Both the position numbers and the translations under genes were made by a program. From Bacteroidota bacterium (GTDB lineage Bacteria > Bacteroidota > Bacteroidia > J057): a DNA stretch of 34,983 nucleotides. The stretch is from NCBI GenBank assembly GCA_013298365.1, contig JAAFHL010000008.1:1-34983 (forward strand), read 5' to 3'. Below, in pieces: positions 21,277 through 25,980 of this stretch (its first letter is position 1; every line of letters begins with the position of its first letter). Below the pieces are notes generated by a model. The model saw only the letters and a program-made list of their open reading frames with translations, did not search any database and was not told where the DNA came from.

Positions 21277-22152
21277 ATGACACAAAGAATATACATTTTG
21301 CTTTTCATGGTGCTTATCATCGTCTCCGCTTGTGAAGACAAAACACCACCTGTTCCACCCGTAAATGTGCAAGATACGATTCCCACAAGAGACGATAACA
21401 TGGCGTTAGGAAATCCGAGTAATGCTGCAACTGACCCGAGTAGCCCTAGTAACTATTTGATGGTCAAGCCGCAATTTGTACTTTCTTATAATAGTTCAAA
21501 AGGGGAAGCAAATTGGGCAAGTTGGCATTTGAGTCGTGCTTGGAAAGGAACGGCTGCACGTCAAGACGATTTTCGCAAAGACCCCGAATTGCCAAGCAAT
21601 TTCTTCTCTCCAAGCTCAACTTCTTATTCAGGTTCGGGCTATGATAGAGGGCATTTATGTCCTTCTGATGACCGAGACGGCTCTATTGCAGACAATTCGG
21701 CTACCTTTGTTATGACAAATATGATTCCGCAAGCCCCAAATTTGAACCGAATTTCATGGTTAGCCTTAGAAGATTATGGACGAAAATTGGTTACGCAAGG
21801 CAACGAAATGTATATTGTCGCAGGCGGCTATGGCACAGGCGGCGTAGCAAGCAGCACAAGTAGCCTTGTAAACAGCATCAATAATGGGCAAATAGAAGTT
21901 CCTGCCTATACCTGGAAAATTTTGGTAGTATTGCCTGTGGGCAAAAATGACATAAGCAGAATTACCGCAGATACACGTGTAATTGCTGTTGCTATGCCTA
22001 ATCGCTTCGATGTTAATGATTTGTCTTGGGGGAATTATCGAGTTTCCGTAGATGCGTTGGAGCAAAGTACAGGCTTAGATTTTCTTTCGGAAGTTCCTGT
22101 TGGTATTCAAGCAGCCATAGAATCAAAGGTAGATACAGGTCCTACAAATTAA
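21277..22152 (+). CDS. DNA/RNA non-specific endonuclease (NUC1 family), lipoprotein
   Basis: Lipobox-like LIIVSAC; GYDRGHLCPSDDRDGS (DRGH active site), NMIPQAPNLNRISW. Confidence 0.94.
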   Translation: MTQRIYILLFMVLIIVSACEDKTPPVPPVNVQDTIPTRDDNMALGNPSNAATDPSSPSNYLMVKPQFVLSYNSSKGEANWASWHLSRAWKGTAARQDDFRKDPELPSNFFSPSSTSYSGSGYDRGHLCPSDDRDGSIADNSATFVMTNMIPQAPNLNRISWLALEDYGRKLVTQGNEMYIVAGGYGTGGVASSTSSLVNSINNGQIEVPAYTWKILVVLPVGKNDISRITADTRVIAVAMPNRFDVNDLSWGNYRVSVDALEQSTGLDFLSEVPVGIQAAIESKVDTGPTN

Positions 22153-23452
22153 CATCTAATAATTCATGTTGCAAGCGATTTTCAATATTTTCTTGTTGAG
22201 AATCGCTATCAACATCTATTTGAACGCTTAGTATTTTAATCGTAATCACTTCTTTTTCAGCAGATAAGCTATTTTCTATTTCAAAAATAAACGACTTTGG
22301 GCTATCAAAATAGCGATATTGGGGATATATCAACACCATGTCTTTTATACCAAAACGAGTAGCATACGCCAACATTTGATACAAATCGGCGGATTGTATG
22401 TGATAATTTTTGCCTTTTTCAAGGCTTAATTTTTTATATTTAGCATCAATAATTCGTTTTTTAGGAATCAAAATATCGGGTTTCAATTGAAAAGCTGCTT
22501 CATTTGTCAAAAATTTTGTATGCTTTTTTGCTTGGGCAATGACTTTTATTCCTTTTTCTTTGCCTTTTGCTTGCAAAACCCCTGTAACAAAATCCTCAAA
22601 AAGTGATTCCATAGGGAAAAGAAAACAAAAATTACTTTTTTCGCTATCTGTGCCTGAAAATTGCTGCATAGAAAGAAAAAAATAACACATATCTAGTACA
22701 TCTTGTAAAGCATCAAACATTCGCCCAAGTTGTACTTTTTTGCAATCTTCTGCCACACATCTTATGTCTGAAATATCTGAAAGTATAAATAAAATTTCTT
22801 GTAAAACCATTTCATTTTCAGCATTTTGACTCACAGAAAGCAACATTTTTGTAGTAGCTTTTACGATTTGATTAAACAAATTATCATATACAAAAGGTTG
22901 ATAGGTACAGGTGAAAATATGTGGTTTCCCTTGTGCAAATTGTTGAGAAACATAATGAGAAAAGTCAATATTTCCCCTTAAAAAAGTCGTCTCTGTCATA
23001 ACTTCTTCATATTGTTGATAAGGGCTGTTTAACAAAAGAGTTCGGGTATGTTGCGCAAAAAGATGGATAAAAACAGCTAACAAACTATCACAATTACTTG
23101 ATTCAAAAGGTATTTTTTGAAAAGGGAAACGAAACCGCTTACTATAACTCAACCAATACATGAGGTTTTTGATGATATTTTGCTTTTCTGCAAGCGTAGG
23201 AAGATCATTTTTCGTAAATATTTTAGGATAAATTTCTATCCATTCCGACTCAAAATAAATAAAACCCACAAAGTTTCGAGCATTCAAACAATTGCCTTCT
23301 ATTTGTAGAAACTGTTGTTTGCTATTTTCTTTTTTCTGCGTAGAAAAAGCATATTTTGTATGCCAAATAGTATGTAAAAACTCACTTAACTGATTAACAT
23401 TAAGTGAGTTAGTTATTTGTATAGTTTGCCATTCATAAGCAATGTTTTTCAT
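22142..23452 (-). CDS. mcrC: McrC-like subunit of McrBC restriction system
   Basis: 436 aa; FVGFIYFESEWIEIYPKIF, C-terminal nuclease core KPDILIPKKRIIDAKYKKL; partner mcrB nearby. Confidence 0.88.
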   Translation of the reverse strand: MKNIAYEWQTIQITNSLNVNQLSEFLHTIWHTKYAFSTQKKENSKQQFLQIEGNCLNARNFVGFIYFESEWIEIYPKIFTKNDLPTLAEKQNIIKNLMYWLSYSKRFRFPFQKIPFESSNCDSLLAVFIHLFAQHTRTLLLNSPYQQYEEVMTETTFLRGNIDFSHYVSQQFAQGKPHIFTCTYQPFVYDNLFNQIVKATTKMLLSVSQNAENEMVLQEILFILSDISDIRCVAEDCKKVQLGRMFDALQDVLDMCYFFLSMQQFSGTDSEKSNFCFLFPMESLFEDFVTGVLQAKGKEKGIKVIAQAKKHTKFLTNEAAFQLKPDILIPKKRIIDAKYKKLSLEKGKNYHIQSADLYQMLAYATRFGIKDMVLIYPQYRYFDSPKSFIFEIENSLSAEKEVITIKILSVQIDVDSDSQQENIENRLQHELLDVNL

Positions 23453-24516
23453 TACAATAGCCCTTCTTTTGTTGCATTTTCAATAATAGATATTACTTTT
23501 TCTAAGGGTATTTCTAACCATTCAGAAATATCTTCTGCACTTTTTCCTTTCTTATACAAGGAAATTACACTTTTTTCTATTCCTTTTTCTATTCCTTTTT
23601 CCATGCCTTTTTCCATGCCCTTTTCCATGCCCTTTTCCATGCCTTTTTTTAATCCTGCTTCCATTGCCTCATCATAGATATACTCCCTTTCATCGTCTAA
23701 AAAACGTTTGAACATAATCAAATCTTCTGCTTCCGTAGAAATATACGTTAATTCTTCTTTGTCTAAGTTGTTTTTAGCAATAAGACGCATCATTTCCTTA
23801 AAAATATCTTTACGCTGAAATTTCTGAAAATCGTTTTTCTTATTCGTTTTATTGCGTGTCTTCTCCGCAAATTCAAACCAATCATGATATTTGCTAAATT
23901 TCTCTTCTTTGACAATATTTTCTTGAAACATAAATATCAACCGATTTTTACGCAAAAAATCCAAACTTTTATGCTTATTTTCAAGGGTTTTTAAAATTCG
24001 TTCCCGAATTACTTTCAATTCCGTTATATCTTCTTTTTCCCACAATTTATGGTTTTCCAAAAAATCAATCGCAGTTTCTGGCGCAGTTGTATAAGCCACA
24101 AAATGATCGCTAAATTGCAAATCATCATCTACCATCCACACCAAAGTCAGCACAGGCTCCAACTCCTTGTAGTTCTTTCCCTTCGTTTTTGGGGAATTTG
24201 TCTTGACTTCTATTTTCTTTTCAGGCAGCTTTTCTAATTGCAAAACCGTTGATGCACAGTGATATAGATAAAAACGCCTTACAACATCTGGCTTGTACCA
24301 TTGCTGCATGTCTATCACGATGTAAGAGCCTTTTATTTTGCAACGAAAATCAACCTCTACTCGTGCAGATTCATCTGTTAGAAATTTTGACCTTTCTAAC
24401 AAAGTAATTTCTTCGATGGTTACATCTAAAAAATCCTCCAAAAAAGCCTTTGCAATATGTGTATGCGAAAATACTTTTTTGAAAAATCGGTCATAATTTA
24501 GTGGTGCTAAATACAT
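23452..24516 (-). CDS. Rpn family / PD-(D/E)XK nuclease transposase-like protein located between mcrB and mcrC
   Basis: LNYDRFFKKVFSHTHIAKAFLEDFLDVTIEEITLLERSKFL...RVEVDFRCKIKGSYIVIDMQQWYKPDVVRRFYLY; GMEKGMEK repeat; stop overlaps mcrC start (TAATG). Confidence 0.88.
   Translation of the reverse strand: MYLAPLNYDRFFKKVFSHTHIAKAFLEDFLDVTIEEITLLERSKFLTDESARVEVDFRCKIKGSYIVIDMQQWYKPDVVRRFYLYHCASTVLQLEKLPEKKIEVKTNSPKTKGKNYKELEPVLTLVWMVDDDLQFSDHFVAYTTAPETAIDFLENHKLWEKEDITELKVIRERILKTLENKHKSLDFLRKNRLIFMFQENIVKEEKFSKYHDWFEFAEKTRNKTNKKNDFQKFQRKDIFKEMMRLIAKNNLDKEELTYISTEAEDLIMFKRFLDDEREYIYDEAMEAGLKKGMEKGMEKGMEKGMEKGIEKGIEKSVISLYKKGKSAEDISEWLEIPLEKVISIIENATKEGLL
23574..23645 (-). repeat. 12-bp in-frame tandem repeat encoding (GMEK)4(GIEK)2
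   Basis: + strand units CC(T/C)TTTTCCATG / CCTTTTTCTATT. Confidence 0.9.
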
Positions 24517-24544
24517 TTTGACTGAATAATAAGTAAATATTGAG

Positions 24545-24576
24545 CAAAAATAATCATAAAAACAATAAATAGCAAA
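24545..24576 (-). promoter_or_regulatory. Consensus promoter TTTG-N20-TATTTTTG in the mcrB-rpn gap
   Basis: CAAAAATA 24545-24552 and CAAA 24573-24576 on +; the -33 element begins directly after the mcrB stop codon (24577-24579). Confidence 0.65.
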
Positions 24577-25980
24577 TTATTTTACCGTAAAAGTTAAAGA
24601 TTCCCATTCATTTGTGCTAATTTGATAGGGTAAATCGGCTTCATCAAAGGCAATATTCACTATTTTTTTTATCGTAATTCCTTTTTTATCTGTATAAAAA
24701 TACTCTTCCAAAAGCGGAATAATATGATGATTAATTATTTTTGCCCAACTAAAATCTTTTTTCATAAATTCGGAATGTCCTATCAAAAAATCTTTGCCTT
24801 TTCTTGCCAAAATTTCTTTGTTCAAACTTTGCAAAAATATACGCCCCTTTTCATCTACAAAATTTTCATATATCGGCGGCATAAACTCAAAAACAAAACG
24901 GCGGCGTAATGCAATGTCTAACAAGGCAATAGACTTATCAGCAGTATTCATAGTGCCAATGATATAAACATTTTTAGGCACACAAAAAAGGTCGCCAGAA
25001 GGCAAAGTAAGTCGCATTTGATGTTCATTTCCCCACCTTTTGTCATCTTCAATTAGCGTTATCAATTCCCCAAAAACACGAGAGATATTTGCCCGATTAA
25101 TTTCATCTATAATCAATACATGATTTTGCAATGTGTCATGTAATGCCTTAATTGTCAGCTTTTTAAATATGCCTTCTTTTTTCTCAAACTTCAAAATCTT
25201 GGCAGAAACATCAGGCTTTATGCCTTCTACAAAATCCTCATAACCATAGTTTTGATGAAAGGTTACAAAGACAATTTTTCCAGTTTCCAATAAATCATCA
25301 TAGCGTTTCTTTAGCTTTGCATAGTCATTTTTATGGTTTTGAAAGAAAACATTATCGGCTATTTCCACCGCTTTTGAAATGGTAGAATAGGTTTTTCCTG
25401 TTCCCGAAGGACCATACAAAATCTGATTCAAAGGAAACATATTATGCTGATACACAGGCTTTTCTTCTTCAACATGACTTGATACTTCTTCCGTTTTTAT
25501 TTTTTTGTCCATATCTCTTTTCAGACGCAAGGCATAAATGGCATTTTCTCGTTTTTCTGCCCATGCTAATACCCTTAAAATCAAGGCATTAAAATCTATA
25601 TTCGTTATATTTGTTTCAAAAATGGGATTCTCTTGCCAACCTTTTTTCCGCATTTCTTTTAGCACTTCTTCTGGCTGAAAAGTAGCTACCTTATAATTAT
25701 CCTCCCAAAAAACAACTTCTCTTTTGGCATCAAAATAAAAATCTTTATGCGACATAACATACTCAAAATCCTCTTTTTTGTTTTCCTTTTGAGGCGAAAT
25801 AGAAAAATAGGGTACATAATTTTTTTGATAGAAACCTACTTTTATCAAAAATTCGCTTGTATTTTGTTTAAATAGAAAACCTTCTTTTTGCTTGATAAAC
25901 AGCCAATTAGCTATTTCTGTCTTAGTTTCTAAGGCAGAAAAATAATTTTGTAAGGCTTGTATAAATTGGTTTTGATTCAT
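24577..25980 (-). CDS. mcrB: McrB-like AAA+ GTPase with unrecognised N-terminal domain
   Basis: LYGPSGTGKTYSTI, FVTFHQNYGYEDFVEGIKP, LIIDEINRANISRVFGELITLIE, GTMNTADKSIALLDIALRRRF. Confidence 0.93.
   Translation of the reverse strand: MNQNQFIQALQNYFSALETKTEIANWLFIKQKEGFLFKQNTSEFLIKVGFYQKNYVPYFSISPQKENKKEDFEYVMSHKDFYFDAKREVVFWEDNYKVATFQPEEVLKEMRKKGWQENPIFETNITNIDFNALILRVLAWAEKRENAIYALRLKRDMDKKIKTEEVSSHVEEEKPVYQHNMFPLNQILYGPSGTGKTYSTISKAVEIADNVFFQNHKNDYAKLKKRYDDLLETGKIVFVTFHQNYGYEDFVEGIKPDVSAKILKFEKKEGIFKKLTIKALHDTLQNHVLIIDEINRANISRVFGELITLIEDDKRWGNEHQMRLTLPSGDLFCVPKNVYIIGTMNTADKSIALLDIALRRRFVFEFMPPIYENFVDEKGRIFLQSLNKEILARKGKDFLIGHSEFMKKDFSWAKIINHHIIPLLEEYFYTDKKGITIKKIVNIAFDEADLPYQISTNEWESLTFTVK

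Follow-up and report, generated by a model that had tools for sequence, protein, structure and literature searches.

Gene organization of the mcrBC locus

The DNA analysed here (the window) is a stretch of 34,983 nt from Bacteroidota bacterium GCA_013298365.1 (contig JAAFHL010000008.1, positions 1 to 34,983, forward strand), and the source genome belongs to the GTDB lineage Bacteria; Bacteroidota; Bacteroidia; J057. Three genes follow one another in the same direction on the minus strand: mcrB at 24577-25980, an rpn-like gene at 23452-24516, and mcrC at 22142-23452; the open reading frame check confirmed exactly the positions and the common direction given in the initial annotation. mcrB and rpn are separated by a 60-nt gap without overlap. 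The rpn stop codon (23454-23452) and the mcrC ATG (23452-23450) have one base in common within the sequence TAATG (23450-23454, minus strand), an overlap that had been noticed earlier and is indeed present. The GC contents of mcrC, rpn, and mcrB are 30.7%, 33.1%, and 31.8%, respectively, against 36.8% for the window.

The gene mcrB encodes an AAA+ GTPase of 467 aa, which matched AAA_5 (E=7e-16) and PRK11331 (E=3e-38) in hmmscan and carries the Walker A (GPSGTGKT), Walker B (LIIDEINRA), and NxxD signature (MNTAD) motifs of McrB-type GTPases. Its N-terminal ~180 residues had no Pfam match of note in hmmscan, and its C-terminus extends about as far as those of its homologues in the alignment. The AlphaFold model of McrB, built from single-sequence input, has a pLDDT of 37, too low to be informative.

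The nuclease subunit McrC (436 aa) matched PF10117 with E=6e-71, and alignment to homologues showed that the PD-(D/E)XK residues D326...D336-A-K338 are retained and that the homologues begin at the position of the mcrC ATG, which is thus the natural start. The active-site motifs are intact in McrB, McrC, and Rpn. Because these motifs are kept, the mcrC start is natural, and the mcrB C-terminus is about full-length, all three genes are intact. The locus shares with McrBC type IV restriction systems, such as McrBC of E. coli, an McrB-type GTPase, a PF10117 McrC, a common direction, a natural mcrC start, and intact motifs. Unlike the usual McrBC, however, the two genes are not adjacent here but parted by rpn.

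On the plus strand, a lipoprotein-like Endonuclease_NS gene (21277-22152) is convergent with mcrC and overlaps it by 11 bp, and a second, different PD-(D/E)XK 'transposase-like' gene (PF12784, 20311-21246) lies ~0.9 kb past mcrC.

The gene between mcrB and mcrC

The middle gene encodes a protein of 354 aa, in which residues 9-341 match the Rpn model TIGR01784 end to end with 30.7 bits, below the model cutoff of 52.1; hmmscan gave no Pfam match of note for this copy. When the window copy was aligned with 44 relatives, 28 of the 45 sequences matched TIGR01784 at E<=1e-3. The alignment showed complete conservation (45/45) of D56, D/E69, Q71, and R81, and D9 was present in 42 of the 45 sequences. 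In the window copy these residues read D56...D69-x-Q71 and R81, a PD-(D/E)XK motif with Q replacing K, plus D and R as in RpnA. The same D...[DE]xQ...R motif occurs in E. coli RpnA-E (YhgA-like, TIGR01784/COG5464), where it corresponds in RpnA to D63, E82, Q84, and R94; the RpnA residues tested in a previous study were D11, D63, E82, Q84, and R94 (PMC5350276). Since the TIGR01784 score is under the curated cutoff, we filed the gene as Rpn-like, in a divergent subfamily. The Rpn-family name proposed in the initial annotation is right, though it rests on the relatives as well as on the gene's own match.

The C-terminal tail of Rpn is variable and contains 4-residue repeats (G-M/I-E-K; 23569-23646, minus strand) in a predicted helix, followed by a helix-turn-helix-like tail, according to the translation, the paralog alignment, and the AlphaFold model (pLDDT 78, helix 253-322). 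Previous study showed that Rpn tails differ in such 4-residue repeats (PMC10327210). Foldseek searches with the Rpn model returned only matches with E>=0.036, none of them significant, and many of the top matches were PD-(D/E)XK nucleases (Bax1, MGME1, McrC, XisH, and RecU). Regarding a small C-terminal antitoxin form, no single conserved internal start codon was found among the 45 Rpn sequences, in which an ATG occurs at residues 242/243 in 12 and 17 sequences.

The subfamily shares with E. coli Rpn a repeat-bearing variable tail, multiple copies, tandem duplicates, and the lack of terminal repeats and target duplications (PMC10327210). It differs in that the window copy scores below the TIGR01784 cutoff and has neither a Pfam match nor a clear conserved antitoxin start.

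Arrangement of mcrB, mcrC, and rpn in other genomes

We searched 100 relatives and 396 Bacteroidota genomes for McrC and read 32 loci. mcrB adjoins mcrC in 27 of them (gaps <=16 nt) and is fused to it in one; the others are three solitary mcrC genes and one locus at a contig edge. The earlier statement that mcrB and mcrC are normally adjacent thus holds for 28/32 Bacteroidota loci. Adjacency is usual rather than obligatory, as solitary mcrB and mcrC genes also exist. Three genera of a single family (f64: G337, G279, and G459; loci L098, L101, L103, L220, L221, and L222) have a solitary mcrC and a solitary mcrB-like gene at separate places of the genome; the neighbourhoods are partly alike, pointing to an McrBC split of long standing in these genera. 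In another genome (G067, contig C9, L218:3930-7880), a tandem pair of McrB-like GTPase genes immediately precedes mcrC.

The initial annotation had proposed looking for an rpn gene in the mcrB/mcrC neighbourhoods of Bacteroidota. The rpn profile had zero matches in or near mcrB/mcrC at the 32 McrC loci, and an McrB-based search of 395 genomes of the class revealed further loci, none with rpn. Conversely, rpn genes of this subfamily were read at 71 loci from GTDB genomes of several phyla, and none adjoins mcrB or mcrC, short contigs hiding a few of the neighbours. McrC and this rpn type are both missing from the two genomes of the same genus, which are draft assemblies. Identity to the nearest McrC found is 39%, and an initial scan of GTDB contigs for McrC, with a single protein as query, retrieved no relative. 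No plasmid was found to carry this rpn type, and plasmid McrC matches were all below 60% identity. In a published census of McrBC, Rpn is absent from the main text (PMC11090510). The arrangement is unique in this sample. Adjacent genes in relatives, together with an rpn insertion confined to this genome, had been named beforehand as the outcome contrary to a functional link, and as far as computation can tell this is the outcome observed.

rpn copies in the host genome

The host genome (5.1 Mb, 630 contigs) contains nine full paralogs of this rpn subfamily and about 20 further TIGR01784 genes, giving a Rpn-family total of about thirty. The nine paralogs stand at 43-58% identity and include two tandem pairs; the window copy has at most 57-58% protein identity to any other copy in the genome. 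In the tree, five host copies form one group (support 99/94), and the window copy clusters with those on C379 and C557 (support 97/87), whose neighbours include BatA-like and Omp28-like genes. RmuC, aldehyde dehydrogenase, and AlgH-like genes are also among the neighbours of the host paralogs. Of the 36 genes that lie close to related rpn genes on the same strand, most match ordinary families; defence models (mads, HEC-01, and PtuA/GajA/Ari-like ATPases) are matched by a minority, and AAA_21 is present in three.

Comparison of the host paralogs revealed no common flanks; the coding sequence alone is common to them. The C379 and C557 copies are ~90% alike from 41 nt 5' of the ATG through the stop codon and dissimilar beyond. 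At another locus (C264, L056:1340-4421), an AAA_15 ATPase gene truncated exactly at the rpn ATG forms an in-frame fusion with rpn, and intact relatives of this ATPase read on with TTHNPAILDGLNL at the point where the rpn ATG begins. The fused rpn is followed by a near-identical second copy, and the lost C-terminal part of the ATPase is not present downstream.

Neither terminal repeats nor a target duplication was detected for rpn. The two junction regions match each other over 8 nt at most, as in shuffles, and no inverted repeats above chance flank the window copy. With no terminal inverted repeats and no target-site duplication, rpn does not look like an insertion sequence or autonomous transposon. 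According to a previous study, rpn genes move horizontally as single genes, without transposon ends or target duplications, and form tandem arrays (PMC10327210). The host pattern agrees with this published behaviour of single-gene dispersal (PMC10327210, PMC5350276).

Promoter and expression

The 60-nt gap between mcrB and rpn contains TTTG-N20-TATTTTTG (24545-24576, minus strand), with its first base right after the mcrB stop codon. We take this to be the -33/-7 promoter pattern of Bacteroidota, which makes it a candidate rpn promoter; the pattern arises in 0.6% of shuffles of the gap. The -7 motif (TANNTTTG) precedes 22/28 Bacteroidota rpn genes compared with 22/81 other genes whose upstream region is free (p=3e-6, an optimistic value given related rows). 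It is absent before three of the nine host copies (C264a, C264b, and C315) and before C25b, the second of a tandem pair, so that the motif is usual, not universal, before this rpn subfamily. rpn seems to travel together with its own promoter. A simple sigma-70 scan gave no more than shuffled sequence did and was dropped in favour of the Bacteroidota motif.

It is likely that mcrC is transcribed from the candidate rpn promoter in addition to read-through, and that its translation begins at TAATG either independently or by reinitiation. The overlap implies no more than continued translatability of mcrC; a dependence on rpn does not follow from it.

Origin of the arrangement

We consider it quite probable that a dispersing single-gene rpn cassette landed inside the mcrBC operon and left both mcr genes usable. 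The intact mcrBC operon, a type IV restriction system, was probably acquired horizontally. The cassette would consist of the coding sequence of a Rpn-type PD-(D/E)XK endonuclease, usually with a short upstream stretch bearing a promoter, and its lineage has multiplied within the host genome. The insertion would have fallen exactly between mcrB and mcrC, damaging neither, and mcrC behind rpn would then be transcribed from the promoter in the gap and translated thanks to the stop/start overlap. McrB and McrC would assemble as usual and Rpn would act separately, most likely as a self-inhibited toxic anti-phage nuclease, by analogy with what was described for E. coli Rpn. We infer the insertion rather than see it directly, because no empty site was found and the nearest McrC is so distant. 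The initial annotation had offered, as one option, a selfish insertion with capture of mcrC translation: an insertion comes near our preferred reading, but the transposon ends are lacking and a dependence of mcrC on rpn is not implied. Two observations count against a chance landing. The junctions are unusually clean, with intact mcr genes and a one-base overlap, and selection for co-expression would give the same picture; in addition, the defence-model matches among rpn neighbours elsewhere are compatible with a defence-related preference.

The other option of the initial annotation, a third functional McrBC subunit, appears very unlikely, whether Rpn is taken as a regulator, an extra nuclease, or a toxin released on McrBC failure. 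It draws on the common strand, the short gap upstream and the TAATG overlap downstream, the intact motifs of all three proteins, and the anti-phage activity of E. coli Rpn proteins (PMC10327210). However, the arrangement recurs at none of the McrBC or rpn loci examined and so lacks comparative support, a nuclease is already provided by McrC, the nearest rpn paralogs lie near ordinary genes, and rpn has a candidate promoter of its own. We give equally little credence to its variant as a third component of the operon, such as a DNase toxin linked to McrBC in its expression or release, which would make a two-tier restriction/abortive-infection unit. Somewhat less improbable, though still unlikely, is that independent modules are co-expressed and rpn was retained as a useful second anti-phage toxin beside McrBC. 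The activity of Rpn in E. coli (PMC10327210), the PtuA/GajA/Ari-like and AAA_21 neighbours of related rpn genes, and the overlap that maintains mcrC expression fit such stacking, but rpn neighbours are mostly ordinary genes and no other mcrBC contains rpn. That a repeat-like rpn joined two pieces of a metagenome-like fragmented assembly is hardly credible: the assembly has 630 contigs and rpn is multi-copy, yet the window copy is well diverged from the others, the locus is interior to a 35-kb contig, and mcrB and mcrC stand on either side of rpn in the correct order and direction.

The finding of a landed rpn cassette is ordinary, and its small novelty is the place of this copy, which splits mcrBC with both genes intact and probably supplies mcrC with a second promoter. 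It indicates that a two-subunit restriction operon can take up a dispersing rpn gene and remain unbroken; the operon probably survives since the cassette comes with a promoter and the start codon that follows stays usable. In rpn-rich genomes, gene adjacency should not readily be taken as function. Finally, the -7 enrichment and the ATPase gene cut at the rpn ATG help to define the moving unit of the rpn family.
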